Shown here in pieces: positions 37,301 through 57,059 of a DNA stretch of 64,000 nt. The notes under the pieces are model-generated. The model saw nothing but the letters and a program-made list of their open reading frames with translations, ran no database searches and had not been told where the DNA came from. A program made the position numbers and the translations under genes. This stretch comes from Owenia fusiformis (taxonomy: Eukaryota > Annelida > Polychaeta > Sabellida > Oweniidae): positions 39,637,671 through 39,701,670 of the forward strand of contig CAIIXF020000007.1 in NCBI GenBank assembly GCA_903813345.2, given 5' to 3'. Every line of letters starts with the position of its first letter. Position 1 is the first letter of the stretch.

Positions 37301-40300
37301 CTTGGTGGAGTGTCCAAAATTAAATGCTGCCGGGGCTAGAAGAAGAGCGGATCGTAAACGGCGTTCAACAATACAGGATGTGTATACCAATATGGCGACT
37401 GTAAATTCCATAGTTTACGACATGTATCAACTGTCCTATCATATGTATGGAAATGAACAAATGTGAGTATCATTTTTTTTCTTTAAATACAAAAGTTGTG
37501 TTTTTTCTTGACATTCTGTCAATCAATTATTTAGCTAGTATATATAGCAATAGATATTTATATCATCTTCACAAAACGTTTAATATTTATATTGATCGAT
37601 GGATTTATATGATTACCTCTTGAATTTAGTTTATTGGTGAGGAGGGGATGATATTTTTGTAATTATAAAAAAACATGATCTAAACACCTCAATTTAAAGG
37701 AGTTATGTTTGTTTTAAGAAAATCCCCACTTTTCCAATTTCCTATATTAAAACCATAACTCATGTAATAATCAGATGAAGTATGACTTTAAAACGAAACT
37801 GAATTTATTCTAGGTTCAACCTTGGCCTAGGGCTATGGTATCTCGAGTTTGAAATGAGCATATCTGACACCAGCGACCTAGGAACATCTTTATCATTAAA
37901 CGAATCAGCAAATGTGCTGGAGTACATCAATGAAACAGATCGTGCACTTGTTTCTGCTTTCCTCCAACGATGGAACAACTCCGTTAACGCCTGGAGGAAC
38001 GGTGTGACAGAACCCTCGCCAAGCATTGACATTATATCAAAATCAATGCTTGAAACGACCATGAGTAAATTTAAAGAGGAACACCTAAACTCTGTAGAGG
38101 TGCGCTTGATTTTATCAGTTATTGGAAGGTGTTGTTATCAGGTTAACAAATTATGTAGGGTTGTGTAATGTTATGTTATGTTGTGTAATGTCATGTGATG
38201 TTAGGTTATATTCTGTAATGGTATTTAGCTCATTTTATGATGCAATACATTTTTACGACTCCAAACACTCTGGTTTACTTGTTTATATTATTTAACTGTT
38301 GTGTATAGTTTGTTTGCGTACCTACTTGCTTATATCTGTCTGTTTGAATTGGTTTGATATTGACATAATTTGTTTCAGAGGGGTTTTGATGATGTCTTTG
38401 CTGAGTTCGATAACGCCTATGTAGCAGTACGGGATAAGTTTGAAAATGAAAAGGTAAGCTTTATTAACTGTGAACTATTTAGCGTTGATAGAATCTTCAA
38501 TCTTGCAGAAAATGACCGTTGTGTCAACACTGGTGTGTTCGGGCATTAACACCCGCTGCCTCTAGTCAGTTCGACTAACAAAAAAAAGTTACCTTTTTTG
38601 TGGATAGGAATTGAACGCCAGCACTTTCGAATTAGGCGTTTTGGTGCCGAAACCACGAGGTTGAAAGTTCCAGACGCATGTGCACCTTGTGTTTTTTCAA
38701 TTATTTATCCTATTAATATATAACGTTTTATAAAATCTATGTTTTTTATCATATAACTAGAAAGAAAAAGGAGTATGCGCTAGAGTGAGAATAAGAATCG
38801 TCCAAGAGGCAGTTCTTACACGAGATGCATTCAATGGTAAACTGGAGATTGAAAATGGTGAAAATTCAGCCCTAACAAATATTAAAGTTGATCTTCATAT
38901 ATGGAAATCAGAGGATGTGACACAGGAACATACGATGGATCATTTTTCAATAGGTATTGTTTATGCATTTTAGCCCATTTGAACACCTGTGTACTTTTTG
39001 ATTTATTGAACAGGAATTTAGTCTTCGAGATTTAGGCTAGCATATACTTCCGATAAATCCTACCATAGTTATGATAGTTTTTCTAATATATCAGCGGGTG
39101 ACAAGCTTTTTCAAACGATCTATTGAATGAAATACATCATCAATACCTAACTGAGCAAAAAGATTTAGGTACATGTAGTTCGAATTCCTTGATCAGTGAC
39201 TGTCATTCTGTCGCTGTCGGGTACACATAGTCGATTCCGTGCGTGGCTTTCAATTTTCAGTTTTGACAAAAAGTACAAAAACGATTAAGAGATGGTTATT
39301 TTTAGCAATGTATGAAACTTCAGAAACTTCAGCGCCCCGTTTTAAAATAATGTAGGTCCTTGGGTTTCCCTTTGATTTTCCCTTTCCCTTCGATTTTCCA
39401 TTTACATCTCTGACATGTTGATATATTTTATTTTATTATGTCCATCCAGAAAATTGCTTGTTGAACAATATTTGAAAAATAATTGAATTTCACCTAAAAC
39501 TCTTAATACTCGTATACCCCTTTGTATTTAATTTTTTCAATTACACTTGCATTGGCAGGGGATCCAGATTTGAGTGGCATCAGTTCTGTAGATGGTTTGG
39601 GAAGTCTAGAAAAGGGGAAGACCGGTGCTGCTGAATGGTTGATCATACCTTACTCTACAGCTGCACCGTCAGAAGATATCGTGTACGCCATTGGTGGTGT
39701 ACTCACTTACTATGTTGACGAGGCTAAATTTACCGTCCCACTTCTTGCTGATAGTGTAACTGTAAAACCTGACCCACGACTTCATATTCATTACTTCCAT
39801 GAGAAATATGTTGAAGCTGATGATCCCTTTACAAAGGATGTGGTTGAGCCCTCTGTTCCATTTAGTTTGGCTATTATGATTACAAATGCAGGTAATGGGA
39901 TCGCAAGGGGGCTTAAGATAACTTCAGCTCAACCCAAAATAATAGAAAATGAAAAAGGACTATTGGTGTCATTCAGGATTATTGCGGCACAAATAGGAAA
40001 TGAAGCAATATCACCATCCTTGGCGATTGACTTTGGGGATATTGAACCTCATCAAACAAAAACTGCCCGATGGCTTCTCGAATGTACCCTGAAAGGGAAA
40101 TTTTTTAACTACACGGCCACGTTTGAGAACATAAATCCTCTGGGTGACCCTGAACTCTCAGTGTTAGATGTTCTAGAGTACCATGACTTGATTCATCTGG
40201 TTCGAATGCGAAGTAATATAACCCAGTCTGATGATGGCTTCAGTGATTTCCTGGTAAATGATAGAATAGATGGGCTAGATATGCCTGATGTTGTATATAA

Positions 40301-43300
40301 TAGCAAGGACCAATCCAAAGAGCCAGTGTTTGTTAGTCTTAATGTGACATATGAGAAAACAAATAAAAATTGGTCGGGGAAAAAGTACAGTTACCTGGAA
40401 GTCAATGTTCCTCTTGGCTGGACTTGCACTGATTGGGTGTACGCACGTTTTGAACATGACATTGAACTTGATGCTGACAAACATTTACTCCAGGTCCTGA
40501 GACACAACGGTAAGGAACTTATAAGACCTGAAAATGCCTGGATGACGTGGCATATAGAAGAATCCCTATTCGGGCATTTGTTTGACCATTGTCCATGGAA
40601 CCTGAACCAGTTGTTTTACAACTACACATTCATTGTTGGTCCCCTCAATAATTACGATCCGAAAGTGAATGATTTCATCGTATCACTTGTAGTTAAACTG
40701 CCACTTTATAAAACACAATATGTCACAACCATTATTGCTACTGATAGAGATGGTGACGGCATCAGATACAGTTTTGTTGAACCGTCTGATTACTTCAATA
40801 TTGACAGTGATTCGGGCGTCATTCGAGCAATTCACGACATTACTGTGTTGATTGGTGAACAAAGTATTCACGTTGGAGTTGAAGATGATGGGATTCCACC
40901 AAGGAAAAGTATAAGTGTCCTGAAGTTAATATTTGAAGCTGCTGATTCAAAAACAGTGTCTCCAGATTACACAGATCATACGACGGAGATGACCAATACA
41001 GTGACTAGTACTACTGATACATACGATCATGCAGCTAATACAACAGTGGTGAACCCATTTACTACCGTTGATGATAAATTTACGAAAACATCTGGTATAA
41101 CGACTTCCACACCATCTATTGTGACTTCTGGAGCAACACTCCCTTCCAAAAACTGTAAGTAACATTGTCACTGATATTTGCACACTACCTTTGTATTCAA
41201 AGTTCAGAGATAAATTATTAAGACTTTATGTACTTGTGGATGGATAGTTATACAGTACCACATTTACTAGGATGCCTCGATTAGAAATTATGTTACAGAA
41301 AATGGCCTTTGTATTCAAAGATTAAAATATAAAGTATAATGATTAAATTAAAGAAAGGTAACATTAGGAAAATTAAAAAAATCTTAAAGAACAAAATGTG
41401 TTTCTTATTTGTGGAAAATGCAAACCCACCCTTTCTAAAATGTCACAACAAGAAAGTAAACTAAAAATGCGTCACTTGGAAATGTATATGTATTACACAA
41501 GAATTTTAGCGAAGTGATCTTGATAACTCGGTAGATGTATTTGAAATGATGATGATTTTCTTATTAAAGTTCCAGGGAATAACGACGAACGGTGGAACCT
41601 CGATCAATAATCACATGCATTTCAAAAAGTGGATACACTTGTGACGTTTCAGTCAATATTAACTTCATATACAGTCCATGACGTATGCATTCACCAACCA
41701 ATTGTTAATCCTGAATGACAAATATCATTATTTAATACACAATGTATGATTTCAGCTGGCTTACTCTCTCTTTTGTTGACCCTGAAAATGTTGTGGAAGG
41801 CTGTTTTTAATGATGTTGATGCCAATGAAACAAGAGGGTTATATCAGTCAATCTTATTGATAGTAGGTTTTACATTTCAATATATTATGCATCTACTGTG
41901 AAATCAATGATTTTCGCCTGAATATTCATAAATCATAACCTCAACTAGACAATGTAGATTATATATCGTGTTCAAAGCATGCTGAATATCAATAGGGTCA
42001 TGCTTGAATGATGTATTATCATTATTAATGCTTTAATATATTCCCATTATTATTTCAGTTGCGAGATGCGTTTAAAGGAATGTCAAATATTCTCAAGGTC
42101 ACCCTAGACGGTTTAAGGTTAGTATAATTATTTATCTCAAAATCGAATAGTTAACGTTTGATACGAGTAGAGAACTACTGAGACGTTTTTCATTTGTCTA
42201 ACGAGATCCTGCTACCAATCGAATAACGGTTAATTAATATAATTTCATTTTGTAAAATATTTGTTATTATTTTTAGTCCGGGGAGTGTTGTTGTTAAATT
42301 GGGTGTGTTGCTATCTGAGAAGGCAACAAATAAAACGGCAAATGAAACCCTTAATGTATTGAGAAAATACTTAGAGACCGTTAACTACACAGTCCTAACT
42401 GACAAGGAAAATATCACGATTAAAGAGGATAGTCTAATTGTCAGTAAGTCTGTGTAAACAGTACCAAATACGATTTACAATTGATTCTTTGTCGTCAATA
42501 AACAACTAGGTGTCATTTAGTATTACGTTATGATTAATTTCCGTTTTACTTTATATTAATTATTTTCCACATCAAATACGGTCTGCTCCGTTCATTAATT
42601 CTAATGATATCTTTTTATATCAGAAAAGGGGTCAAAATGGTGTCTGAACTGGGGTAAACGAGCAATCAAAATATAAAACCACAATGTCTATCAATACAAT
42701 ATATGTAACTTTGAAATATTTAAAATAGGCTGCTATATAATGTTATGAATTATTTTTCATTATTATATTGATCAGATACGCATACTTTAATTTTAGATGT
42801 AGATCCTTGCCAAAATGTCAACTGTGGTGAAAATGGCGAATGTGTATATCGCGATCAGCACACGGCATGCAGGTACACTGTTTCCTTGAGATCTGAAGTC
42901 GAATTTGGATCGTTTGTTAGAGACTGTTTGACGATATAAAAGAACAAATAATATGAAATATGAAATATTTTGCTGAAGGAATATGATAAATATATGCAAA
43001 CGATAACAGGCTCTAAGGCGCTCTTCGGTAACCCTACTATCACACCAAACTAGTTCTCACTACGTTCTCGAAAACGGGCTTCAACTGTGTACGAACGGAC
43101 TGGACGTACTTAGAACCGTTTGGGGTATATTTACAAACTTCATCGAACGTACTTGAACGGGTAGGTCCTCTAGAACTTAGAACATACTCAAAATGCTCTC
43201 GTGTGGTCGTCACGTTCTACAATTAGAACGAGTGACAACGTACTAACGACGAGCTGGACGTACTACGAACGGAACCGTCGTACTTCAATCCTACCAGGGA

Positions 43301-46300
43301 CGTTTTTAAAACGAGTTGAACTGTCTTAGGACGTATCGAGAACATGTTAGAACTAATTGCAAACGGGTTTAAACTGATAAAGAACGTATTAAAGACTGCT
43401 TATGAACGAGTTAGCAAAAATAAAGCTATCACACCAAACAAGTTGCCACTGCGTTCTTCAAAACTGGTTTTAAACTGTGTGCGAACGGAATGAACGTAGC
43501 TGCAACTTTCTAAGGACTATTTACGATCTTCATGAACGTCCTCAGACGGGAAGGTGATTTTAGAATTTTGAATCGATTCAAAATTCGATGGCGACCATAC
43601 CGTTCTGTAATCAGGTCATGATGACCTTCTAGACTAAGGGACGCGTTAACAACGTTGCACACCGACGTGGTGCGACCTGTACGAACTGCGAATGAGATGG
43701 ACGTATTGAAGACTGTTTATGAACGAAGTAGCTAATTATTTTAGACATATTTTCCGACCACAGCCAGATTGAGCCCGTTTTACGACGTTTTCGTAGGACT
43801 GGCAAGAACGGGTAAGAACTAGTTTGGTGTGATAGGGGGGTTACCCTACTATCACATCAAACTAGTTCTCACTATGTTCTCGAAAACGGGCTTCAACTGT
43901 GTACGAACGGACTGGACGTACTTAGAACCGTTTGGGGTATATTTACAAACTTCATCGAACGTACTCGAACGAGTAGGTCCTATAGAACTTAGAACTTGCT
44001 CAAAATGTTCTCGTTGTCATCATGTTCTAAAATCAGATCGAGTGACAACGTACTAACGACGAGCTGGACGTACTACGAACGGAACCGTCGTACTTAAATC
44101 CTACCAGGGACGTTTTTAAAACGAGTTGAACTGTCTTAGGACGTATCGAAAACATGTTAGAACTAATTGCAAACGGGTTTAAACTGGTCAAGAACGTATT
44201 AAAGACTGCTTATGAACGAGTTAGCTAAAATATAGCTATCACACCAAACAAGTTGCCACTGCGTTCTTCAAAACGGGAAAGTGATTCTAGAATTTTAAAA
44301 TGATTCAAAATTCGATGGCGACCATACCGTTCTGTAATCAGATCGTGTGATAACTTCAAACGAGATGACCTACTAGACCAGGAACGTAATTGCCGTATTT
44401 AAACCCTAGGGACGCGTTATAAAACGTTGTGCAATCGGATATCAATTGCAATACATGTGCACACCGACATGGTGCGATCTGAACGAACTGCAAATGATAT
44501 GGACGTATTGAAGATTGTCTAAGAACGAAGTGGCTAATTATTTTAGACATACTTCCCGACCACAGTGTGATAGGGGGTTGCCAAACATTTATCACTTGTA
44601 TTCCACTTACTATATGTTTCATAATTCACTTTGTATAAATTATGTTTATATTTGTCATATGTTAAACCATGCCATGGACTATATATAATTGTAAACTTAA
44701 ATCATTTCCTAACAAAATGACACCATCAAATTGAAAAACCTTTGTTTTCTCGTGGAGTAAGAGATTAAAATTGACACCAGGAGTGCCGTAAGCTACCATA
44801 AATTAAAAAAATTAAAATTCCCAAATTTCCCTCCATGTTGCAGTCACAGTTGACTGAATCTGCTTGACTGAATCATGATAAATTTAAGAGTAGTACACAA
44901 TTGATAAGTAATTAAAAATATATAAGTATAATTGCTGAATTTTGCGCTATACTTGTATAAATGTACCTCTTTTGAAGGGGCCAAAGTTCAAATTTCCCTC
45001 AATTTCCCTCAATTTGGAAATCCGAAGTGAATATATTTGGTCGCTCATGACACCCCTGGTGTCATGCTAGCTCTAACTCCAACAGAAAATAACGGTTTTT
45101 CAATCAGCTGGTGTCATATTGTTAGGAAACGATTTATGTTTAAAATGATATACAAATACATGGCATGGTTCAGCGTAATATCATAGTGATATTCATCCTT
45201 AAATTTGGGTATTGTTTTTTGGCCCACCCTGTATATTGCTAGAATTTTAATAATGTTAGAGTTACAATCGTTTCACTTTACAATGAGAAATGCTATTTCA
45301 CAATGCATACCTGCGTATATGTATGTATATATGTATGTAGGTGTTATTCGGGCTACGAAGGTCCTGATTGTAGTGACTCTACGAATGGAGAATCGACTAA
45401 CACACTAGTGATAATAATTTGTGTGACAGTTGGTGCCATAAGTATCATAGGGATCGTCGCTGTATGCTACTGTGTCATGCAGAGGGGGAAGAGGGGCAAA
45501 TCGTCTACTAACACAGATGATAAGGATATGTCTGTGTTAGGATACAACTCTACAATGCTCGCGAAACAACAAGGACAAAGGTATGTATATGCATTTGTCG
45601 AGCATGTCTTCTTTATTAAGTATATGTCGAACATCACTTTCATTACCATGTTTATAAGCACTATTTCAAGGAATTCCTGATATAAAGACACATATAGGGT
45701 AGCAAAGATTTCTTATGAAAGGCAATTTCAACAATACATAATACCTTACGTTTTAACACTAATGATATATAACACGAGTGGCAATTCAAAAGTAATGATC
45801 AAAAACTTTATAGACGCAATTACTCCCACTCAACTTGAAGGACACTTGTAACTTACTATGAAGATCAACCAATTATCAAGGACTTGTAAAAACTGCATGA
45901 CATAGATAGAGATACATTTCAACATATGGCACCTTCAGGATGATGGTGCATACTCCCGAAATAAATTATGTCAACATGGGTCGCAAAGGGTCACAGCAGC
46001 CCCCAGGGTTTTAAACCTCCAAATACTTAAATATTGACCTTTGAATGACCGTTACCACAGGTCACCCAATTATGGGTCGCCAAATACTTTGATATTGACA
46101 TTTGACCTTGGAATGACCTTGACTAATGTACATTGACCTGAAACTCACATAATCATGGGTCGCCAAAGGTCACAAAAGCCCCAAGAGTCTCTCAACTCCA
46201 AATACTTAGAAATTGACAGTTGACCTTAGAATGACATTGACCTCAGATCACCTAATCGTGGATTGCCAAGGGTCACAGAGGCCCCAAAGGTAGTTTAAAA

Positions 46301-46929
46301 CGCTAAATACTTAGATATCGACTTTTGATATTGAGATGACCAATGAACATTGACCTTGACTCAAGGTCACCTAACCAATGGTCATAGTAGACCCTAAGGC
46401 CCTTAAACACCTAATACCTACATACTTACTTACTTACATACTTAGATATTAACTTTTTACCATGAGATGACCAATACATATTGACCTTTGCCTCAGGACT
46501 CAAGGTTGCCTAATGATGGCCAAGTGTCAAAACAGCCCCAACACTGAGACACTTGACACTGAGAAGGTTATTGAATGATCTAAGTCTTTAAAAATGTTCA
46601 GTTTGTCTATAAGACATATAAGGCATTACTTTTGAATCATCCCTCGTATGTGTATTTCTTCCTGTGATATATAAATGACTTCCTGTTGAAATGTGTCTCT
46701 GGTATACATTCGACTTGGCAGATGTCCCATCGTTCGTTTGTGTGCCGCAATACACAATAAATTATGCTTTGAGAAAACATCGAACAGACATTATGTTTTA
46801 ATTGCGTAGACCTACTTATTTTTAAATAGAGAAAAGATATGATGAATTCATGCAATGTCTACATTTTTATGTTGCAGGTCAACAATAGGTCGTACCGAGT
46901 CGAGATCAAGCTGGATGGGGGGTTTATAG
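10277..46929 (+). CDS. Giant mosaic type I membrane protein, 46 coding exons (about 4,515 aa)
   Basis: Hand-built model with continuous phase: 10277-10349, 11470-11775, 11899-12042, 12526-12618, 13312-13553, 14285-14407, 14787-14925, 15010-15117, 17785-19146, 20461-20553, 20675-21456, 21831-22185, 22640-22732, 23196-23342, 23520-25056, 25259-25332, 25635-25739, 25855-26112, 26643-27937, 29039-29303, 29425-29750, 30070-30285, 30503-30613, 30719-30924, 31276-31390, 31517-31693, 33117-33410, 33555-33654, 33834-34157, 34324-34538, 34854-35021, 35413-35641, 36115-36301, 36531-36700, 36992-37079, 37286-37462, 37814-38099, 38379-38453, 38761-38953, 39559-41154, 41756-41862, 42059-42117, 42277-42443, 42797-42872, 45341-45580, 46878-46929 (stop TAG). 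The lengths sum to 13,548 nt, a multiple of three. The product is a cell-surface mosaic: signal peptide, FAMeT, discoidin, PbH1 modules with SRCR and PAN, EGF, IPT, conserved beta-rich region, cadherin-like, Thr-rich, SEA, EGF, TM. An adhesion or matrix role is inferred from the domains. The N-terminal two fifths resemble Bark beetle/Anakonda in combining SRCR with PbH1. The weakest borders are 25332, 35413 and 41862. Confidence 0.85.
10350..11469. other. Introns over 300 bp with nothing recognisable
   Basis: Intron 1 (10350-11469), most of intron 4 (12619-13311), intron 11 (21457-21830), intron 18 (26113-26642), intron 19 (27938-29038), intron 21 (29751-30069), intron 24 (30925-31275), intron 31 (35022-35412), intron 32 (35642-36114), introns 36, 37, 39 and 40 (37463-37813, 38100-38378, 38954-39558, 41155-41755) hold only AT-rich sequence to my reading. 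Confidence 0.5.
11470..12042 (+). CDS. Exons 2-3: FAMeT / Methyltransf_FA-like domain (aa about 25-174)
   Basis: Exons 11470-11775 and 11899-12042, both phase 1 at each end, encode one compact domain. Visible family marks are the opening beta strand [16 protein letters not shown], the [16 protein letters not shown] core, the Cys pair in [16 protein letters not shown] and the closing [11 protein letters not shown]. This matches the farnesoic acid O-methyltransferase-like domain (Pfam Methyltransf_FA). Despite the name, the domain occurs in many secreted invertebrate mosaics as a probable binding module, and methyltransferase activity should not be assumed. It follows the signal peptide directly, so it is the exposed N-terminus. 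Confidence 0.82.
12215..12316. repeat. Palindromic MITE copy A1 (intron 3)
   Basis: Carries CGATTCGTCGATCAGCACCC, GGCCGATTCAGTATTTGATT and the inverse AAAATACTCAATCGG. The same sequences recur at 22817-22948 in intron 13, so this is one dispersed inverted-repeat family. Confidence 0.65.
12526..14407 (+). CDS. Exons 4-6: F5/8C discoidin domain (aa about 175-327)
   Basis: Exons 12526-12618, 13312-13553 and 14285-14407. The domain opens with [20 protein letters not shown], continues with [17 protein letters not shown] and [11 protein letters not shown] (strand leading to the ligand-binding spikes), then [19 protein letters not shown], and closes with [13 protein letters not shown] and RMELFGC. 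The first Cys and last Cys bracket the domain as in coagulation factor V/VIII C domains, and the length of about 150 residues is normal. Such domains bind lipid, glycan or collagen at the cell surface; the ligand here is unknown. Intron 5 (13554-14284) carries a palindromic minisatellite. Confidence 0.9.
13838..14230 (+). repeat. Palindromic minisatellite in intron 5
   Basis: Nine units at about 13838, 13895, 13942, 13990, 14036, 14092, 14140, 14182 and 14218 (spacing 36-57 bp), each built round GACCTTAGGCCTAAGGTC, a perfect 18-bp palindrome in the best units, followed by a looser TCATCAATGAATGGTTT spacer. Confidence 0.92.
14787..19146 (+). CDS. Exons 7-9: PbH1 module 1 (aa about 328-863)
   Basis: Exon 7 (14787-14925) gives a helix cap: a [18 protein letters not shown] strand pair. 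Exon 8 (15010-15117) gives LNIQG...WSGLSFVSG. Exon 9 (17785-19146, 454 codons) is a parallel beta-helix solenoid with many rungs of about 22-25 residues bearing IxNNxF/IxxSxIxxN patterns. The solenoid ends at a [13 protein letters not shown] motif, the usual exit sequence of such helices, and the exon then supplies the cap of the next module ([14 protein letters not shown]...GIGIHILG). Several NxS/T sequons are present. Right-handed beta-helices of this type bind or process glycans in enzymes; no catalytic residues are recognisable here, so a structural or binding role is more likely. Confidence 0.82.
15511..16196. repeat. Foldback element in intron 8
   Basis: Inverted arms at about 15511-15562 and 16142-16196 (AAAGGAGCAC, GGTTATCGCAAAC, ATTTCA in both, reversed). 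The sequence between them has no coding potential. Confidence 0.75.
16270..16860. repeat. Tandem array of about 140-170-bp units in intron 8
   Basis: About four diverged units, marked by AAATTCAAAATGGC-like tails at about 16371, 16510, 16681 and 16829 and by TTTATTATACTCAA / GAATTTTAGAGTAG motifs between them. A G-run (about 16543-16552) lies inside. Confidence 0.7.
17224..17620. mobile_element. GC-rich MITE with terminal inverted repeats (intron 8)
   Basis: Ends ACGCCCCAGTCACATT and AATGTGACTGGGGTGT are inverse repeats; inside them GCACGGCGGCCGTGCG / CGCACGGCGGTCGTGCG and GAATTTCTGCGGCGAGCG / AAATTCTACGGCGAGCG repeat. Flanked by TA. It is about 400 bp and non-coding, and much richer in GC than its surroundings. 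A decayed end of the same family lies at 53308-53366. Confidence 0.88.
19430..20318. mobile_element. Foldback MITE with ~300-bp arms, Tc1/mariner-like TA ends (intron 9)
   Basis: Outer ends TACTCCTCAAAAAAAAGTTAAG and CTTAACTTTTTTGAGGAGTA are inverse and flanked by TA. The arms run to about 19740 and from about 20009 inward, with near-identical inverse stretches (e.g. ATGGCAGATCCCATGTTAAA, CCGCAACGTTTCAATGTTAT). No transposase is encoded. Confidence 0.9.
20461..22185 (+). CDS. Exons 10-12: PbH1 module 2 (aa about 864-1273)
   Basis: Exon 10 (20461-20553, 93 nt) reads [20 protein letters not shown] and repeats the exon-8 unit. Exons 11 (20675-21456) and 12 (21831-22185) form a shorter solenoid with rungs such as [19 protein letters not shown], closing at [11 protein letters not shown] and FPYL. 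The end of exon 12 is the cap of module 3 ([20 protein letters not shown]). Exon 11 to 12 joins in phase 0 with acceptor TTTTTGAAG, which is less pyrimidine-rich than its neighbours but preserves the solenoid. Confidence 0.8.
22640..25056 (+). CDS. Exons 13-15: SRCR domain inside PbH1 module 3 (aa about 1274-1865)
   Basis: Exon 13 (22640-22732, 93 nt) carries the short W-x-GI unit ([11 protein letters not shown]). Exon 14 (23196-23342) and the first 175 nt of exon 15 form an SRCR domain: [38 protein letters not shown], then [35 protein letters not shown]. The six group-B-style cysteines can be placed (VCDD, VACR, MACEG, FTCRH, NCGH, ITC). SRCR domains mediate protein or pattern-ligand binding. 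The rest of exon 15 is a long solenoid ending in the [13 protein letters not shown] exit motif, followed by the next cap ([15 protein letters not shown], continuing into exon 16). Confidence 0.87.
22817..22948. repeat. Palindromic MITE copy A2 (intron 13)
   Basis: Arms GTCACATTTGCTCAC...GGCACCCGGCCAATTGAGT and CTCAATCAGCCAGGCGCCTG...GAGCACATGTGAC are inverse repeats of each other. Related to 12215-12316. Confidence 0.7.
25259..27937 (+). CDS. Exons 16-19: PAN/Apple domain inside PbH1 module 4, then first EGF (aa about 1866-2443)
   Basis: Exon 16 (25259-25332) completes the cap ([20 protein letters not shown]). Exon 17 (25635-25739) is the W-x-GI unit ([11 protein letters not shown]). Exon 18 (25855-26112) is a PAN/Apple-like domain: [53 protein letters not shown], with the six expected Cys. 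Exon 19 (26643-27937) is the fourth solenoid, ending in [16 protein letters not shown] and VYIPIL, after which an EGF-like domain starts ([25 protein letters not shown]). Exon 16 has no canonical GT at the phase-correct end: homologous modules require one extra G before the junction, but the sequence there is GAAG/TTAAGT. Confidence 0.8.
29039..29303 (+). CDS. Exon 20: EGF-like repeats (aa about 2444-2531)
   Basis: Reads on in phase 0 from SCQQ of exon 19 into [25 protein letters not shown], then [23 protein letters not shown] and a laminin-type [17 protein letters not shown]. About two and a half EGF/EGF-laminin repeats are present. No calcium-binding EGF signature (D-x-D/N-E) is visible. 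The 1.1-kb intron before it (27938-29038) holds nothing recognisable. Confidence 0.88.
29425..30285 (+). CDS. Exons 21-22: EGF end, IPT/TIG domain and a further EGF-like segment (aa about 2532-2712)
   Basis: Exon 21 (29425-29750) finishes a laminin-EGF-like repeat ([17 protein letters not shown]) and then enters an IPT/TIG immunoglobulin-like fold: [55 protein letters not shown]. The G-P-x-x-GG-T and Y-x-C-x-F / I-x-C-x-SP pattern is typical of plexin/Met/PKHD1-type IPT domains. Exon 22 (30070-30285) gives [31 protein letters not shown], an EGF-like unit, and then a linker beta strand. Both introns are phase 0. Confidence 0.85.
30503..31693 (+). CDS. Exons 23-26: conserved Ig/cadherin-like beta segments (aa about 2713-2915)
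   Basis: Exons 30503-30613, 30719-30924, 31276-31390 and 31517-31693. Exon 23 ([20 protein letters not shown]...LLIWP) and exon 24 ([20 protein letters not shown]) together read as a putative-Ig/cadherin-like repeat. Exons 24-26 carry a carboxypeptidase-regulatory-like strand pattern ([61 protein letters not shown]). I recall this stretch only from uncharacterised large metazoan proteins, so no function is given. The exon 24/25 codon becomes Cys (TG/T), and the exon 24 end is among the less certain borders. Confidence 0.72.
31707..32681. mobile_element. Mariner-like non-autonomous element (intron 26)
   Basis: The left end (TACA..GTAT..AAAAAACGCAACA, AAGCACAAAACCAATGAT) is the inverse of the right end (ATCACTAGTTTTGTGATTTT, GTTGCGTTTTTTGATACACC). 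Inside, two direct copies of about 200 bp (from about 31755 and 31967) share TTTGCAAAGTGGG and CAAAAGCCAGT-like motifs. No transposase frame. Confidence 0.82.
33117..35641 (+). CDS. Exons 27-32: conserved uncharacterised beta-rich region (aa about 2916-3358)
   Basis: Exons 33117-33410, 33555-33654, 33834-34157, 34324-34538, 34854-35021 and 35413-35641. Recognisable stretches shared with uncharacterised giant proteins are [18 protein letters not shown], a CARDB-like repeat (FEIGVSNEG / [17 protein letters not shown]), [16 protein letters not shown] and [20 protein letters not shown]. The fold is probably a chain of Ig-like/CARDB beta sandwiches. Exon 32 uses the strong acceptor TTTTGTTTCAG at 35412; an open frame upstream of it is intron. 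Exon 32 contains RQKRSGSAC, a furin-type site. The intron before exon 27 (31694-33116) holds a mariner-like MITE. Confidence 0.72.
36115..38453 (+). CDS. Exons 33-38: Cys-containing region with clustered dibasic sites (aa about 3359-3686)
   Basis: Exons 36115-36301, 36531-36700, 36992-37079, 37286-37462, 37814-38099 and 38379-38453. Exon 33 has [15 protein letters not shown] and a hydrophobic stretch. Exon 34 opens with KRKRRDLY and soon has RRRKRGVDK. Exon 36 has [15 protein letters not shown], and exon 37 is a helical Ser/Asn-rich segment (about 96 residues). These clusters fit R-x-K/R-R proprotein-convertase sites. No named domain is recognised. Phases 2, 1, 2, 2, 0, 0 join without a break. 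Confidence 0.7.
38761..41154 (+). CDS. Exons 39-40: conserved core, cadherin-like repeat and Thr-rich stalk (aa about 3687-4282)
   Basis: Exon 39 (38761-38953, 193 nt) encodes [20 protein letters not shown] and a beta-sandwich strand. Exon 40 (39559-41154) continues with [52 protein letters not shown], and later a cadherin-like repeat ([43 protein letters not shown]) with only part of the calcium ligands. It ends in about 75 residues rich in Thr/Ser, a likely O-glycosylated stalk. The conserved core is known to me from uncharacterised giant metazoan proteins. A close paralogue of both exons lies inverted at 51124-53574. Confidence 0.9.
41756..42443 (+). CDS. Exons 41-43: SEA domain with GSVVV autoproteolysis motif (aa about 4283-4393)
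   Basis: Exons 41756-41862, 42059-42117 and 42277-42443. The order [66 protein letters not shown] is that of a SEA (sperm protein, enterokinase, agrin) domain. The GSVVV motif (Gly codon 42281-42283, Ser 42284-42286) is the classical site where SEA folds cleave themselves between Gly and Ser, leaving two chains held noncovalently. It sits between the Thr-rich stalk and the EGF-TM, exactly where mucin-like SEA domains lie. Exon 41 is the least certain: its donor GTAGGT at 41863 was chosen because phase 0 is needed for exon 42. Confidence 0.78.
42797..46929 (+). CDS. Exons 44-46: membrane-proximal EGF, transmembrane helix, cytoplasmic tail
   Basis: Exon 44 (42797-42872) and exon 45 (45341-45580) form one [18 protein letters not shown], then [12 protein letters not shown]. 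Exon 45 goes on to a short Ser/Thr spacer and a transmembrane helix ([20 protein letters not shown]), followed by basic RGKRGK stop-transfer residues. The tail continues through [17 protein letters not shown] into exon 46 (46878-46929), which ends [16 protein letters not shown] and TAG. The tail is about 50 residues with many Ser/Thr and one Tyr; the last residues (GGL) are not a PDZ ligand. Intron 44 (2.5 kb) is filled by a MITE pair and a foldback repeat. Confidence 0.9.
43028..43845. mobile_element. MITE copy 1 of an abutting pair (intron 44)
   Basis: Starts GGTAACCCTACTATCACACC, AAACTAGTTCTCAC and ends with the inverse GTAAGAACTAGTTTGGTGTG, ATAGGGGGGTTACC. Rich in GAACG/CGTTC motifs. Sub-repeats (TATCACACCAAACAAGTTGC) lie inside. 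Confidence 0.87.
43841..44582. mobile_element. MITE copy 2 of an abutting pair (intron 44)
   Basis: Begins TTACCCTACTATCACATCAA immediately at the end of copy 1 and ends CAGTGTGATAGGGGGTTGCC. It is a shortened relative of copy 1; the ACGAACGGACTGGACGTACT segment occurs in both. A related fragment may lie at about 62100-62180 (GGACGTATTGGGAACG, TTCTTATGAACGAGT). Confidence 0.85.
44660..45175. repeat. Foldback element (intron 44)
   Basis: The left arm (ACCATGCCATGGAC, TTTCCTAACAAAATGACACC, AAATTGAAAAACC) is inverse to the right arm (GGTTTTTCAATCAGCTGGTG, TCATATTGTTAGGAAACGAT, CATGGCATGGTT). No coding sequence inside. Confidence 0.78.
45960..46560. repeat. Diverged minisatellite in the last intron
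   Basis: About five units of 100-130 bp with AAATACTTAGATATTGACCT, TGACCTTGGAATGACC, AAGGTCACCTAAT and GGTCGCCAAAGGTCACA motifs; unit marks at about 46032, 46092, 46211, 46313 and 46444. The intron is spliced out between exons 45 and 46. Confidence 0.8.
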
Positions 46930-48838
46930 ACAAGGAGGGGTACTAAATTCACACTGTTAAAACGGAATGATTATCCTCATATTTAGTATATATTTAAACG
47001 GAATGCTTTTTTATTTTTGTATACTTGAACTATATATATTGCAATTTTTGTATAAACATATTTAAACGGAATGCTTATTTTCATCTTTCGTATGCCTCCT
47101 AAACGTTCTTGTGTATATTTATGACCCAGATGGAGAAACTAGAAAGGACGAAATGCAATGGTCACACTACGTTCTTGTTGGCAAACATATAATCTGCTCA
47201 AGATTGAGACAAGTGTCATTTTGAATGTATGATCGAAATAGATCTACACTTCGTCATATTGTTAGAAAATTGACATCATCTGAATAAGTTGACGATGTGC
47301 TCAATTTTATTTTCAATTTGCTTTATTGACCATTGACTTTTGTCTCCTCGAATACATGAATATTATTAAGTATATAAATATTAATCAAAAGCAGAAGTTC
47401 AATTCTACAATAATTCATGGAGAATTTCAAGCATGCAGACTTAAGCTATGTTGAGGAAGCATCTCTATTGATTATGAGCCGACAACGAATAGTTGTAGCT
47501 ACATTCTATTATTGATAAGTGGACAGAGGGACTATAGTAATCAGCTACATTTAGAGCTGCTTTGAACGTGAAGGGAGAATCAAATCTCTATCTAAATAAG
47601 AATAAGAATAAAGCAAGAGGAGGGAAAACCCCATGAATCGATTGATGACATACGATTTCCTCCTTAGCGCACCTCCTTCCCCGGAAGTACTTAACCTCCA
47701 TCTTGGTTTTCAAAATTTTCAAATTGACCTAGTTTTAAACCAAATCAACGATCGACTCGCTAAACCAATCAGCGACGATGTCATCTCAATACAGATTTAC
47801 ATTATAAGCGTATGTCATCTTTGAACCCTGGGGTTTCACCTCTCTTAAATTGGGCTTTTAAATGTAAATCGGATTACGACAGGTTAGTTGAATATTTTGA
47901 TGTAATGTAAACTATTGTAATTAAATATGTTAATAATAATGTATACACATTCGTGCTGTAAAATACCTATCGTGTTATTCATCACCAAACTATTTCAATA
48001 TTCATAGTTTCCGAATATTTATTAATCATCTTAGGTTGTACAGTATACGATGTTGATATTTAAAGATCGTATCAGACGTGGCGACCAAAAACGGCCATTT
48101 CATATTTAAACTAGTGTATTGTTTTTAGCCTACTCTGTATACGAGTATATTTGAGAAAGGAATAAAAAACGTATTAAAAATATGTCAATCCTACAATTTA
48201 CTTGCAAATGTGTCACGCAATGGAACTGTTTTTGCGTTGATAGCGTTTGATAATTTGATACATGATAGATTAACTTGAAATGACATTTAATATACAGCAA
48301 CGAGACAAACGGTTACTTCCAATAGGTGAATAAATATCGATTTTTCATCCTGAATTCAAAAAAATTGAAAAAACAACACAGGGTGTCCCGAAAGTATGTT
48401 TTTTAGAAATATTGAGATTATTGAAAAACAGGGAGTGTATAATGTTACTCAAACACCATGTCACTATATTTCAATTTCTGACTTTATCTCGAAAAGGATT
48501 TGGAATATATGATCAAATAGTTATAGAAGAGATGGGGCATCTTAATTAATCAAAACTGCGATGGTATCTCCCCTCTTAATTTTCGTCAAATTACCTTAAA
48601 AATTAAAGGATAGCCCTAAAATAAATTCAAAAATGTTCGACCCTTTAGAAAGAAGGCACAAATTCAAATGAGTAATTGTGGCAATTCTTTTACACTCGCT
48701 CTTAACCGTTGTGTATTTCCTTAAGTCGATACTAAATTGTAACACTTATAAGGCTATCAGTTATGAACAACACCTAAGTTGATGACCTGTACATCGATCC
48801 CAATACAATGTTTTTGATTTTAAGTTCGATATCACTAT
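46930..48838. other. Convergent intergenic spacer between the two paralogues
   Basis: About 1.9 kb between the stop codons of the two tail-to-tail genes. It must hold both 3' ends. I see no clear AATAAA close to either stop; AATAAAG occurs at about 47609 on the plus strand. The sequence around 48382-48398 (CAGGGTGTCCCGAAAGT) looks like one terminal repeat of a Tc1/mariner element; I did not find its partner. Confidence 0.55.
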
Positions 48839-49509
48839 TTATCGCCCTCTTGCACACATCCTAAGGGAAAGCTCCTCCATAAACGGAATTAGCTCATCAA
48901 AGTGTCCAAAGACCTTGTAATGGGTATGATATGGTTCAGAGGAAATTGATTCCCATTCTTTCTCAACATTTTTCCGAGCTTTGCCACGTTCACTGGGAAG
49001 GCCGAGGAGAAAGATTGCCACTTTCTCTGTTCCATTTCTCGCCTTTAGGGCATTAGCAGCTCTGAGTGTATTCTTCTGATATTTAGCCTTCATCGTGCGT
49101 CCAACTGTCACAATGATAATAATATTGTAGGCCGCAGGTCGATCACCCGCAGCTGGTGTGAACACAACACTATTTGCGAATTCAAGTGCGAGATCCGTTC
49201 GTCTTCGTTTGCCAAGTGTCATTGATTCATTTCCGATGATCCCCAATGTTGCCGCTTTTGTACTAGACGCAGTCTCGTTAAACAGCATCTGAGACATAAC
49301 TCTATCATTGTACGTTAAAAGTGCAAATTTCACAGATTTATTACCATCTCCGACATCATTGAATGTTTCAACTAATGCTTTCATTGCATCCCGAACAACT
49401 GTCCGATGGTCTGTTTTGAGACTTTTTGAATTGTCGAGGATAATAAGGACATCTAGCGGGACATCTTGGACACATTGGATCGTACTATTTCCATTTATCT
49501 CGTTAGATC
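48839..49509 (-). CDS. Paralogue vWA domain 2 and C-terminus
   Basis: Second vWA domain: PLDVLIILDNSKSLKTDHRT carries DxSxS, the GKRRRTDLALEFANSVVF Thr loop is present, but the usual Asp in the third loop is replaced (IIIIVTVGRTM instead of TDG). The domain ends FDELIPFMEELSLRMC and the protein stops after CARGR at 48839-48841. There is no hydrophobic anchor after it. The acceptor is TTTTGATTTCAG. Confidence 0.9.
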
Positions 49510-52500
49510 CTGAAATCAAAAGTACGATAATGCACCAAAGCTATAACTGATCTATCTGAGGAATGTTTGCATTAAGCATGACTAATAAGAATAGAATGTT
49601 CTAATTAAGGAATAAATAATGAAAATCCATTCAATATGGTGAAATTCAGCACGAGTTGGACAGAATGTTGTACAAAGCACGAACAGAAGGTGAGTGCATT
49701 TGTACTAACATTCTGTCCAACGAGTGCTGAATTTCACCATATTGAATGGCCTATCATTATTTATTCCGATTCAAACATAAAAATTAGTAAAAGCCGTGTC
49801 TGTGAAACGGGCATGAAGGAAGAATACGCATGCTGTCAAGATTCTGAAGTCGGCCGGAAAAATTCTAGAATTTGTTTGGGCTGTTCTATTTTACTCCCCG
49901 TTTTAGATTCTAACGGTGTATGCAAACATGGGGTATTGATAAAATAAATAGTTACAGTAGTTACGGAGGGAGTAAAAAAGAACAGCTTTCCCCGGACAGA
50001 GCCCCAGATGTGCAGCTGAGATGTGTCGTCACTCAAAACAACGCAAATTTCAGATTGAATAGAGCATGGTCGTGCATCTATGGAGAATTGGAGAACGTTC
50101 TATATTGGCTATGCTGCATTCTGATTGGTTGAGAAATTCGAATAGAGCACGGTCATGTTTGAATCCCTTATAACAAATAACCAGTAAATTTTTAATCATT
50201 CTGACCTGGATAGTGTTTGAGATTTTGCATTGTAAAGTTAAGACGAGCGTATACAATTTCTGCTAGACTCTTAGAATCACTTGAGTATTGGAATATGTTA
50301 TCTTGCTCAGCGAGACCATTAACCTGCTCCTTCGTGTCATTGAACGCCGTCTTACCATCTTTGTTAGGTAATTGAACCAAGAAAACATACGCATTGCTTT
50401 TGGTACGCAGTCGTTTCATCGATGTCATCGTCTTTTTTATGAATTTCTTTGGATGCGTACGACCATCAGTCAAAAGAATCAAAACATTAGAATTGTGATC
50501 ATCCTGCTCACCAGATTCGAAGAAATCTTCAATTAACATTTTAAGAGCTTTACTGAAGATTGTTTTACAACCTACAGCAGCATAATCAAAGTTTTTAGTA
50601 GCATTGATAACATCAGCTTGCGTTTCTCCATCCCCAAATCCAAACACTTTACGGGAGATTTGATCAAATGCTAGCATTCCAAACTTGATGTCTCGTGGTC
50701 TCTTGTTATCAGAGATGGGTACTAAATCAAACTTTCTGACAAATTCCTCGATGAATCTCTTTGTGCCATTTTTGATATCATCTGAGGTACTACACGAGGT
50801 GTCAAACGCAAATACTATATTTGCTCCAACTGAAATCAGAAAAATACACAAATGAGTTATTTCTCATGAGAAAGTGTACCCTACTCAAACTTTATATTAA
50901 AGTTGAAGAAAGATGGAGCATGAACATGAAATACAATATTTGCTTGATTAGGTATGTCTGTCCGTATACATATATCCGCTTGTCTGATATCTGATATGAC
51001 TTCCTATGGTATAATGTCTTCTAACTTTTACCTTAAGATTTCATATTTGTACAACATACTCCCGACTATCATCGCTCTGCAGCAGACATTTGCAAATACG
51101 AATTAATAATAATATATGCTTACACTTATTTGAAGGTCTTTTGACAACTGAAGTAGCGGTATGTGTGGCGGGTGTTGTTCCATTTGAAGTTATATTCCCA
51201 AAGATTGGGTTACTTGTCATTTGGTGGGTGATGTTGCTATAGAAATCATGCACTGTACTAAGAGTCTTAACCGTATTGTAAGATGTGTCAGTGGTGGCAC
51301 CCTCAGGTTTAGTAGAGCTTATACTTGTTGTTCTATATGCTGTTATCTCAGTGACAACTCTTGTGTCATTTGACACCGCAGTTCCTTGTAATGTGTTTGC
51401 ATCAGTAGACATTTGAGTAACATTTGCACCCATCACTTCAGTGGTTTTGAATGTGTTTTGGGATGTAGTTGTATCTATTATAGTTGTATTCAAAGCAGTT
51501 GTCACTGGAGTGAACTCCGTCACGTTCGTGGATGCACTTGTTTGGTGGGAAGTAGACTTCCCCGGTGTTGTGTCCGCAGCTTCGAATATTACATCAACAA
51601 CACTGACACTTTTCCTCTGCGGAATCCCATCATCTTGGACTTCTATATGAACGCTTTGCTTGCCGAGCGAAATGATTGTTTCAGCTAATGTGACAACACC
51701 AGAGTCGCTATCAATCTGGAAGTGATCTGAAGGTCCAAGCAACTTAAACTTGATACCATCTCGGTCTTCGTCAATGGCACCAATGGTTGTAATGTATTGT
51801 GTTTTATAAGCGGGGAGTTTAATGATTATTTTCGCTATAGATTCATTCACCTTTGGATCATACGTATTCATAGGACCAATGGCAAACGTATAATTATGAA
51901 ACATCTGACCCAGGGTCCATGGACAATGGTCAAACAAATGCCCATAAAGCGAATCCTCTACGTGCCAAGTCATCCAGGCATTATCGGGTTTCATTAGTTC
52001 CTTTCCGTCGTGTCTTTTGACTTGAAGCAACTGGTTATTAGCATCAAGTTCAACATCATGCTCGAAACGTGCATACAGCCAATCTGTACAATTCGAATTA
52101 AGAGGGACATCTACGTGCAAAATTGTATACTCTTTACCAGACCAATGTTTATTCAATTTTTCATAGGTCACATTCTGACTAACAAACACTGGCTTTTTGG
52201 ATTGATACTTGCTATTGTATACAACATCAGGCATGTCCAATCCATCAAGTTCATCATTAACAAGGAAATCCCGGAACCCATCATCAGACTGTGTGATATT
52301 ACTTCGCATTCGAACCAAGTGAATCAAGTCATGGTACTCAAGAACATCTAACACTGAAAGTTCAGGGTCACCAAGAGGATTTATGTTCTCAAACGTCGCA
52401 GTGTAGTTGAGGAATTTCCCTTTTAGAGAACATTCGAGAAGCCATCGGGCAGTTTTCGTTTGATGTGGTTCTATATCACCAAAGTCTATTCTCAAAGAAC

Positions 52501-53574
52501 GCGAAACATTATCATTTCCAAGTTGTGCTGCTATAATCTTGAAAGATACTAACAGACCCTTTTCATTTTCAATTATTTCAGGTTGAGCTGATGTTATCTT
52601 AAACTTTTTCGCCATGCCATTGCCCGTATTTGTTATCATTACAGCCAAACTAAATGGAATAGATGGCTCAACAACATCTTTTGTGAATGGATCATCAGCT
52701 TCAACGTACTTCTCATGGAAGTAATGAATATGCAGTCGTGGGTCTGGTTTCACAGTTACGCTATCAGCAAGCAGTGGGGCAGTAAAATTAGCCCCATCAA
52801 CAAAGTAGGTGAGCACACCTCCGATGTCGTATAGGACGTCCTCAGTTGGCGCAGCTGTTGAATAAGGGATGATCAACCACTCAGCAGTTCCAGTATGTCC
52901 TTTTGATAGACTCCCTGTACCATCCACGGAACTAATACCTTTCAAATCTGCATCACCTGTCAACATAGATTTGGAGTTCTAGATGAGATCCTGGTTAAAT
53001 AAAGCATATAGAATTAGTTCTCTAATATACAAAAGCTACAAAGAGACAAATTGTACAGAAAGTAAGTCCATTTTTAAGAAACGGAACATGTCTGAAAATG
53101 TCTGATAACTTGTTTTAGAGGATAAACAAGTAATGCATTTTAACATTGTTGAAATAGGGTGTTTTTCGCAACAAAAAGAAATCGCTTTATCTTGGAAAAT
53201 ACTAAAAATCAATTGTGTTCGTTTTCAGTAAAGAAGCAGAGACGTTAAATATAGAACTCGTGTAGTTAGTTTAAAAAAGGTTCTAGGATGTTACTGAAAG
53301 TGAATGTTACTGGCCGCAGAAATAATAGACCCCACGATCGCGGTACCAAATATGACTGAGGGTTAAGTTAATAAAAAATACCTATTGCAAAATGTTCCAT
53401 CATATGTTTTTGGGTTACATCCTCCGACTTCCAAATGTGAATCTCCACCTTAATATTTGTTAGGGAAGATCCCTCGCCGTTTTCAATTTCAAGTTGTCCA
53501 TTAAATGCATCTCGTGTTAAAACTGCTTCTTGTACTATTCGTATTCTCACTCTGGCACATACACCTTCCTCTTT
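48839..53574 (-). CDS. Inverted partial paralogue: conserved core, cadherin-like, Thr-rich stalk, two vWA domains (5' end missing)
   Basis: Four exons on the minus strand: complement(53382..53574), (51124..52956), (50206..50829), (48839..49509), 3,321 nt or 1,106 codons plus stop. Phases run through without a break (0/1/1/1). The first two are homologues of exons 39 and 40 of the plus-strand gene; the first is exactly the same length (193 nt). After the Thr-rich stalk the protein differs completely: two vWA domains and a stop replace SEA, EGF and TM, so this product should be secreted or extracellular. Upstream exons (homologues of exons 1-38) are not visible up to the window end, so this is either a truncated duplicate or a gene with a very long intron running off the window. 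The reading frames are intact, which argues against an old pseudogene. Confidence 0.78.
49628..49747. repeat. Hairpin repeat in a paralogue intron
   Basis: Inverted arms of about 45 bp: ATTCAATATGGTGAAATTCA, GCAC, TTGGACAGAATGTT at 49630-49671 and the reverse at about 49700-49746, with a loop of about 30 bp. Confidence 0.85.
50206..50829 (-). CDS. Paralogue vWA domain 1
   Basis: von Willebrand factor A domain: ANIVFAFDTSCSTSDDI supplies the DxSxS metal-ion (MIDAS) motif, GCKTIFSKALKMLIEDFF the Thr loop and LILLTDGRTHPKKF the Asp loop, so the MIDAS looks complete. It ends ARLNFTMQNLKHYPG. The acceptor TCTGATTTCAG and the donor GTCAGA agree in phase with both neighbours. vWA domains of this kind bind matrix or other extracellular proteins. 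Confidence 0.9.
51124..52956 (-). CDS. Paralogue exon homologous to exon 40, with enlarged Thr-rich stalk
   Basis: Begins GDADLKGISSVDGTGSLSKG and tracks exon 40 with roughly four of five residues identical by eye over the first 480 or so, including [32 protein letters not shown] and the cadherin-like SDSGVVTL / VEVQDDGIPQRKSVS region. The Thr/Ser-rich tail is about 150 residues, twice that of the plus-strand copy, and hardly alignable, as expected for a mucin-like linker. It ends in phase 1 at the donor GTAAGC. Confidence 0.92.
53308..53366. mobile_element. Decayed end of the 17224-17620 MITE family
   Basis: TACTGGCCGCAGAAATAATA, GACC and TATGACTGAGGGTTAA match the right end of the element in intron 8 of the plus-strand gene. 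It lies in the paralogue intron just after its exon-39 homologue. Confidence 0.72.
53382..53574 (-). CDS. Paralogue exon homologous to exon 39
   Basis: Reads [40 protein letters not shown] and ends HFAIG across the junction, closely matching exon 39. The acceptor is ATTGTGCAG and the donor GTATTT. It starts in phase 0, so it needs an upstream exon; the Met-like codons before it lie in the intron or splice site and are not a start. Confidence 0.88.
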
Positions 53575-54773
53575 CTGCACAATGAATAAATATCTGCATT
53601 AGGTAACCAATTTCCCGATTTTTTCAATATTTCGAACCAAAACAATCACTTTGAGACTTATATTTTCAAGTGATATAATTTGATAAAACTTGATAAGACA
53701 TCAAGAAAGAGTAAACTAGTTTAAATTTTCTTTGGAATTTAGACAATAAATTATTTGATATGTTTTCTAGGGATGAAATATTGGTACATTATGTTAAGCA
53801 CTTATTTGGTGATCACTTAAATTGCCAATATTAAAATACAACACATCTTAAGCTTTAATTATGAATGATTAAAGTCCCAATGTATAGTTTGAAAATATAT
53901 TTTTATCACGCATTTACTATTTGTCTTGACTTTAAAAATTATATTGAGAATTTTGAAAATATATTTTTTAAATCTTATAATCATTAACTCTTTTTAACAT
54001 CAATGCAACGCTATTTCAATTATAAAATGCCATATCTAATGTGCAACTTCAATGTTTTAGCATATCAAAAATATTTTGCAACCTATGTTATGTCATCATG
54101 ACATCACTCTGGTTGCAAAAAAACATTAAGAAAATATTAGAAATCTTCTTCTATGTCGATCCTTTCTAGATATGCTAAACTTGAAAAATAAGTCAATGTA
54201 GATTGTCTAACCAGGTTTAAAGGAAGAATATATTATGTTTCAAATTTTATTGTACCATAGGTTTCAATGAGAACTAAAATTTTGAAACGCATTTTGCTCT
54301 GAACAATTGTCATGCATGAATGAGTTCATTTCTCTTATTTTATAATGAACAAATTTTCTCGATTCTTCCAGCAAAATGCACATGATTACGAATGTTACGC
54401 ATTGGTGTGAATAGTTGCCTTTTAAAAGATATGTGTGATCTCTAAAAATGGTTCTAAATGATTTCACGATTCCTCTAAAAAAAGTCCTTCATAACAACTT
54501 TTTAGATTAAATTAGTTTCACATATCACACTTTGAAAACATTCGGTAGGACTTCAATATAAGAAAGAGTGGTTCGAATTTTAAATGGGGGCTTAATGGCT
54601 TACTCAAGTTCGAAAATCGAGATAACCGGATGTTATATCCTTGAAAGTGAGAAATATAATTTGGATTACATAAAAAAGTTTCATAGTGTGTCGATATTTT
54701 TGCGATGTAAAAAAATAAACAAAATGTCAAGAAAAACTCTCTCACAAAAATTCCTAACATTCTACATACAACT
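53575..54773. other. Region upstream of the visible paralogue exons; no exon found
   Basis: On the minus strand this is where homologues of exons 38, 37 and 36 would be expected if the paralogue were complete with introns of ordinary size. I looked for their motifs ([26 protein letters not shown]) in the sequence and saw none. The DNA is AT-rich and featureless. Confidence 0.55.
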
Positions 54774-55062
54774 CAGGGGCGGATCTGGGAACCAACAAGG
54801 GGGGGGGGCCCAAATTTCAGGTCAGAGAAAAAAACTGATTTGGGCCCCTAAAACGCAAAAGTGGGCCCAAATTTTGAATAATGAGGCCCATTTTCTTCAA
54901 AATTTGGCCTGAATTTAAAAAATAAGGCCTTAAAAGGCCCAGTAATGACCAAAAAGGCCGACTTTTTGGGGCCTTAAGGCCTTTTTTGGGCCCAATTTTT
55001 TTCTGGGCCCACCCAAGGGGGGGGCGGGCCCCCAGCCCCCCCCCCCCCCTAATCCGCCAGTG
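54774..55062. mobile_element. GC-rich MITE with 5-bp target site duplication
   Basis: Ends CAGGGGCGGAT and ATCCGCCAGTG are imperfect inverse repeats; CAACT is duplicated on both sides (54769-54773 and 55063-55067). The interior is a ladder of GGCCCAAATTT/AAATTTGGCC-type palindromes with G and C runs next to the ends. No transposase. The terminal motif resembles those of hAT-like elements; the family is not certain. Confidence 0.83.
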
Positions 55063-55559
55063 CAACTCATGGTCTTTATATTGAGTAGAAAAAATGAATC
55101 ATCAACAAGTCTTATATATTGATTTTGTAGGCTGAAGAATTACAATAGGGGTAATCCAGGCCTATCTGGAGGCTACCAAAGGTCTAATTTAATATCCGGG
55201 GCTTTAAGTTGTGTACCAAACAAAACTCAACTTTGCAACATCCAGGGCTTTGTATGGTCTTGGTTAGACAATGTTGGATAAGGGGTAAGTTTTTCTCAGA
55301 CATGGGAACCTTCTTTTTGTACCGTTTTGCGGTTATTTTACTCTATGGCATTGCAATCCGTTCACATCATAAGCTACATAATTGATTAACTTAAATATAT
55401 GATATATGTAAATTAGGGGTAATACTAACACAAGGCATTAACATGGCAAAATGTTGCCACCCAGTTGCTCACAATATTATGAGGTCAATCTAAAGTCAGA
55501 CTTGAACTTCTGAGAACTTATAGATGAAACAGGATCTTAAGAGGTTCTGGACAAATCAT

Positions 55560-56060: not shown

Positions 56061-56099
56061 ATTTGGTCACGTGTTCGAACCCATAGAACCATATAGGAA

Positions 56100-56963: not shown

Positions 56964-57059
56964 CACTGGCATGTAGCGGTCCTGATATCGATACATTCTA
57001 CACGCAATAAAACCAGATACCTGCGTGTGATTAAAACTACATGTTAGAGCGTCGATATC

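Follow-up and report, generated by a model that had tools for sequence, protein, structure and literature searches.

A probable 3′ exon shuffle gives one member of a giant membrane protein family of Owenia fusiformis a double-vWA C-terminus

How does a gene from a family of giant multidomain membrane proteins come to end in two von Willebrand factor A (vWA) domains and a stop codon? The question is raised by a minus-strand gene in a 64,000-nucleotide stretch of the 498-Mb Owenia fusiformis genome (C7:39,637,671-39,701,670), referred to here as the window. A plus-strand gene in the same window has homologues of two of its exons, but continues into an SEA-like segment, an EGF-like repeat, a transmembrane (TM) helix and a short cytoplasmic tail. 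We consider it very probable that the minus-strand gene is a lineage-specific chimera, created by 3′ exon shuffling, in which the SEA-like/EGF/TM/cytoplasmic tail was replaced by double-vWA exons resembling those of the mussel protein PTMP1. A literature search of open-licence papers found no description of this gene.

The C-terminal part of the minus gene comprises four exons, with CAG acceptors at 53575, 52957, 50830 and 49510 and the donors GTATTT, GTAAGC and GTCAGA. Spliced together, they yield a frame of 1,106 codons with phase-1 joints and a sole stop at the end. The first two exons are homologous to exons of the plus gene, with 80.6% identity over 206 nucleotides (nt) for the first shared exon and 77.2% over 1,402 nt for the long second one, hereafter the core exon. 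These exons and the phase-compatible vWA exons downstream of them had been proposed in the original prediction, and their coordinates, canonical splice sites and open frame are all borne out. The core donor (a T followed by gtaagc, after ...PSNK) matches the T followed by gtaag or gtgag found in the plus gene and in four of the five other copies; the core copy at C7:35.43 has an A followed by gtaagt at the equivalent position. Both downstream domains match Pfam VWA (PF00092), with E-values of 4.9e-17 for vWA1 and 6.6e-21 for vWA2 (63.1 and 75.7 bits vs a cut-off of 23.8). As predicted, the two vWA domains come without a TM helix: none is detected in the 1,106-residue minus C-terminus, where the highest 19-residue hydropathy mean is 1.1, vs 3.0 in the plus tail.

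In a genome search the core exon turns up seven times: C7 carries six copies (35.4-39.7 Mb) and C4 a single one. For the five copies outside the window, 20 kb around each were surveyed for tails. The SEA-like/EGF/TM tail follows all six other cores, these five and the plus copy of the window, and vWA exons follow none of the six in the stretches read. The minus copy alone carries them, and the C-terminal swap first proposed from the window pair is supported. No relic of the lost tail is found in window positions 48,001-64,000 at E<=1, and two EGF matches to the right of this interval lie within the region of the minus ectodomain EGF exons.

Coordinates of the C-terminal exons of the two genes, given as positions in the window
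Feature	Position	Strand	Remarks
Shared exon before core exon	53382..53574	-	phase-1 donor; 80.6% nt identity to plus exon 38761-38953; in 7/7 copies
Core exon	51124..52956	-	uncharacterised ectodomain part, weak cadherin-like repeat, then Ser/Thr-rich linker; phase-1 donor; 7 genome copies
Intron at fusion junction	50830..51123	-	294 nt, phase 1
vWA1 exon	50206..50829	-	symmetrical phase 1-1; MIDAS complete (DTSCS / T / TDG); without the flanking Cys pair of relatives
vWA2 and stop, last exon	48839..49509	-	third MIDAS motif TVG in place of TDG; flanking Cys pair kept
Exon homologous to 53382-53574	38761..38953	+	nt comparison
Core exon homologous to 51124-52956	39559..41154	+	nt comparison
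SEA-like segment with PGSVVV	41756..42443	+	three exons: 41756-41862, 42059-42117, 42277-42443
EGF-like repeat, TM helix, short cytoplasmic tail, stop	42797..46929	+	exons 42797-42872, 45341-45580, 46878-46929

The minus gene is a collinear paralogue of the plus gene that continues outside the window. A further 44 kb were read to the right, and the 108 kb in all contain no N; the gene pair is no more than about 140 kb away from where contig C7 ends (39,776,147). Collinear upstream exons of the minus gene reach window-equivalent position 100,268 or so, about 36 kb past the window, and its span is about 51,569-100,268 in these coordinates, or about 50 kb. When plus positions 9000-41000 are compared with the minus gene, all 46 matches that score 35 bits or more fall in collinear order, covering 3,980 amino acids at 68% identity. 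Judged by a self-comparison of the window, the duplication had seemed limited to two exons, a view overturned by the further collinear exons in the right-hand 44 kb. Between 53,574 and 64,000 no homologues of plus-gene exons were found; the minus-gene intron running from 53574 to about 65554 measures about 12 kb, vs about 0.3 kb for its plus-gene counterpart.

The origin of the vWA exons can be sought in the same genome, where searches with the two exons return at least 76 and at least 86 vWA-related places. The closest among the matches listed are a tandem cluster at C3 11.42-11.48 Mb and single loci on C6, at C3:25.55 and on C8, with 45-62% identity. In all six vWA1 exons checked, C7 included, a phase-1 AG acceptor falls on one and the same residue. 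A tree of concatenated vWA domains groups the C7 pair with C3:11.475, C3:25.55 and C6 and splits them from the other four C3 copies (100/99), and the same split (90/97) is recovered from vWA2 only (ten sequences). Both trees are rooted at midpoint only, and the concatenated one omits C8, as vWA1 was not found there. Also omitted, here and from the vWA1 motif table, is the vWA1 relative at C3:11.469 (C3:11468808-11469392), which has one TGA and one TAA inside, lies beside an open vWA2 and probably represents a C3 cluster member in decay.

Candidate signal-peptide exons were picked by a simple rule that required a phase-1 donor. Such candidates lie upstream of four of the eight other vWA pairs (C3:11.464, C3:11.469, C3:11.475 and C6). 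The rule gave nothing for C3:11.418, C3:11.457 and C3:25.55, and its sole match at C3:11.443 runs into the vWA1 exon; in C8 and C4:0.44, inspection by eye showed hydrophobic ORFs (open reading frames) that resemble signal-peptide exons. With candidates in only half of the pairs, the free-standing state cannot be extended to all donors. For the C7 pair the rule finds no candidate within 3.5 kb upstream, and we therefore regard it as the tail of another gene, derived from the double-vWA kind, and not as a free-standing member. Six dispersed vWA loci (two on C4 and one each on C10, C11, C8 and at C3:25.55; 4-9 kb each) lack both the core and the TM tail. Their upstream ORFs are short or unassigned, and fusion to some other gene is not seen there. 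Exons of the vWA1 type without a close vWA2 neighbour (39-41% identity) are present at C4:441363, C4:448712, C4:9532460, C10:31868140 and C11:29942181; this set is perhaps a single-vWA subfamily.

The vWA1 exon of the minus gene departs from its relatives at its edges. It is the only one of 13 vWA1 exons with Gly in place of the N-terminal Cys, which the 12 others keep before the first strand, and it has Tyr at the C-terminal CP Cys, which is found in all 11 readable other exons. The lost pair was probably a disulfide, and the loss of both residues, as one observation, is in keeping with adaptation of the coding exon to an internal place. As to which C-terminus is ancestral, a point raised by the original prediction with related species in mind, the answer obtained here holds within one genome only: the TM tail is found in six of the seven copies, and in the trees the vWA cassette falls among vWA pairs from other parts of the genome. 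The TM tail is thus probably ancestral to the core family.

The proposed sequence of events is as follows. One member of the seven-copy family would have lost its juxtamembrane SEA-like/EGF/TM/cytoplasmic tail exons, and the two vWA exons from a double-vWA gene of the PTMP1 type, presumably a free-standing secreted one, would have taken their place via phase-1 introns. Given the phase-1 symmetry of the modules, recombination in introns may have put the receptor exons where the vWA gene had its signal-peptide exon. That extracellular proteins exchange phase-1 modules by shuffling is a well-known principle. Once spliced together, the core and vWA exons would encode a product that is secreted instead of membrane-bound. 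Through its complete metal ion-dependent adhesion site (MIDAS; DTSCS/T/TDG), vWA1 would bind a collagen-type matrix ligand and hold the ectodomain in the extracellular matrix, while the six relatives would hold theirs at the cell surface. We consider secretion, with tethering through vWA1 to such a ligand, the most likely fate of the product. The MIDAS positions are DxSxS, T and D, and a complete MIDAS is not known to be required by the vWA fold.

PTMP1 (PDB 4cn8) is among the closest known systems, with two tandem vWA domains as in the minus gene. In PDB, vWA1 matches this protein alone (2.8e-09), and for vWA2 it ranks second (3.8e-10), although these are whole-sequence E-values and no single stretch falls below 0.001. 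PTMP1 is reported (PMC4754843) as a protein of about 49 kDa with two vWF-A-like domains that binds collagens, and this reported binding is why a collagen-type ligand is proposed for vWA1. Here, in contrast, the vWA pair ends a giant multidomain ectodomain, and the MIDAS of vWA2 is degenerate. The vWA2 domain also matches the integrin alpha-1/alpha-2 I domains (integrin alpha-1 best, 3.2e-07 over a single stretch) and the vWA domains of collagen VI alpha-3 (8.9e-30 for the whole chain, with no single stretch passing alone), but no integrin or collagen domain is present in the exons scanned here.

The swap would move the protein from membrane to matrix, and it offers six membrane forms that can be set against a single soluble one. 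It would also be a clear-cut example of 3′ exon shuffling, in which the kind of donor, the recipient family, the junction and the phase are identifiable in one genome. A further-reaching reading, to which we give rather less than an even chance, is that a membrane-protein family gained, by capturing one matrix-protein 3′ end, a member with the same ectodomain placed in the matrix. This would make a natural receptor/matrix pair, one paralogue membrane-held (possibly SEA-releasable) and the other matrix-held, able to compete for or present the same ligands. The decoy or co-receptor role put forward in the original prediction is speculation.

Several points weigh against the chimera. Neither the first exon nor the signal peptide of the minus gene itself was recognised, and secretion is therefore deduced from its lack of a TM helix and from the family. 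Splicing and product alike are derived from the DNA of a single assembly. Half of the other vWA pairs (four of eight) gave no signal-peptide candidate, two of these having less than 1.4 kb of upstream sequence. The third MIDAS motif of vWA2 is TVG, without the aspartate. Lastly, the basal core branch is poorly resolved, and the ancestry of the TM tail therefore rests on its presence in six of seven copies and the grouping of the cassette, without a core outgroup.

The same exons could belong to two neighbouring genes, the core gene ending by intron retention or in an unseen tail and vWA1-vWA2 forming a separate free-standing gene. Such an arrangement would suit the likely signal-peptide exons of the four other pairs, and read-through of the core donor meets a stop after 27 codons. 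However, the 294-nt junction intron lacks an ATG in the stretch from its last in-frame stop to vWA1, and the C7 pair has no signal-peptide candidate of its own within 3.5 kb upstream. The vWA1 acceptor, moreover, needs a phase-1 donor, which the core exon supplies at a conserved site, and no SEA-like/EGF/TM relic is seen in window positions 48,001-64,000 at E<=1. We judge two genes unlikely. A similarly small chance is given to the reverse polarity, with vWA as the original ending of the core family and a single gain of the TM tail in the other six copies. Resolution in the seven-copy trees is poor, and rooting them on the minus branch would permit this order. Against it, the TM tail is common to six of seven copies, and the cassette groups, in a midpoint-rooted tree, with core-less vWA pairs on other chromosomes and is therefore more likely to have joined the core secondarily.

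It is very unlikely that the minus gene is a silent pseudogene in decay, with exons that look phase-compatible by descent only. This view can draw on the facts that the gene is known here from sequence alone, that its upstream exon boundaries are modelled only in part, that vWA2 has lost one MIDAS residue and that the C3 relative at 11.469 Mb has stops inside vWA1. Stops in one or both rows affect 8 of the 46 plus/minus matches, 7 of which were inspected. In five of these seven, the stops are near alignment ends or at a position common to both copies; match 25622 has a stop in the plus row only, near its start, and match 20648 is low-scoring with several stops. The uninspected eighth, match 24490, scores low and lies in a different frame from the surrounding long plus ORF. 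In the good matches, stops confined to the minus row (22630 and 23204) are near alignment ends and are read as exon edges. Decay inferred from upstream stops was accordingly rejected, and the exons remain collinear. The ratio of nonsynonymous to synonymous substitution (dN/dS) of the minus shared exons is 0.115-0.159 against the six other copies, which together with the lack of clear frame damage argues against a pseudogene; the core comparisons used 520 codons, with the Thr-rich linker left out of dN/dS and of the core trees. For the vWA exons, dN is 0.26-0.33 and dS 1.2-2.4, near saturation, giving dN/dS of 0.13-0.22. Both Cys residues of the vWA1 pair were lost together and the remainder of the domain was kept, which again speaks against decay.

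The arrangement of the window genes had suggested a local tail-to-tail duplication. Among the 21 pairs of the seven copies, nucleotide identity is lowest (77.3%) and dS highest (1.18) between plus and minus, and a recent duplication is therefore unsupported. The C4 copy is closer to both window copies (83.4% to minus, 80.6% to plus). In the protein tree of the core copies the minus copy falls in a polytomy, and in the best codon tree it stands beside a group of plus and 35.43 (support 84.8/77). Forcing plus and minus to be sisters costs 6.4 log units and is not rejected by the approximately unbiased (AU) test (p=0.093), so that an old tail-to-tail duplication is compatible with the trees. A 73-residue exon is 96% identical between the two genes, but it is also 89-96% identical to the plus copy in all six other copies. 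It therefore gives no signal of local gene conversion.

The core exon itself has few recognisable relatives. A seven-row profile matches cadherin-23 (7.7e-06) over about the last 90 of its 456 positions; Pfam Cadherin gives 0.0019 on the minus core, under its cut-off, and nothing on the plus core. No NCBIfam match was obtained for the core exon, a single-sequence PDB search at E<=1 was empty, and an AlphaFold model from one sequence (pLDDT 31) was unusable. The linker of the minus core comprises 150 residues, 39% of them Ser or Thr. Two upstream beta-helix exons are present at six of the seven core loci and absent near the 37.45-Mb C7 copy. The unplaced contig C496 carries the beta-helix exons twice with equal scores (12187-23244 and 42115-53171, 29.9 kb apart), without a core, possibly as a tandem duplicate or an assembly duplicate.

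Upstream of its tail, the plus gene has exons that match beta-helix, Methyltransf_FA, F5/8C, SRCR, PAN, EGF and TIG domains. Bark beetle/Anakonda, a tricellular junction protein of Drosophila, is a membrane protein of giant size that combines beta-helix with SRCR domains. The plus gene resembles it in this combination and differs in adding the Methyltransf_FA, F5/8C, PAN, EGF and TIG exons. Of the SEA-EGF-TM tail originally predicted for the plus gene, the TM helix and the EGF-like repeat stand, the latter with Pfam matches under the cut-off. The SEA label (PF01390) finds no support from Pfam (0 families at E<=10) or from a PDB SEA match, and is based on position and the PGSVVV motif. PGSV is present in all six TM tails, as PGSV[VI]V in five and PGSVKV in one. 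The Ser/Thr-rich linker and the PGSVVV segment before EGF/TM recall SEA membrane mucins of the MUC1 type, for which PMC9564314 places cleavage between G and S of GSVVV; in the plus gene such cleavage is putative.

Window positions 43027-44565, in the plus-gene intron between the EGF exons, hold two direct repeat copies (90-95% identical, about 810 nt apart). No inverted pair of at least 60 nt was found for this repeat, and its ends, judged by eye, look like the short inverted termini of a non-autonomous DNA transposon. To the left of the plus gene, positions 253-1302 of the minus strand contain an intronless frame for a rhodopsin-type G protein-coupled receptor (Pfam 7tm_1, 6e-36).

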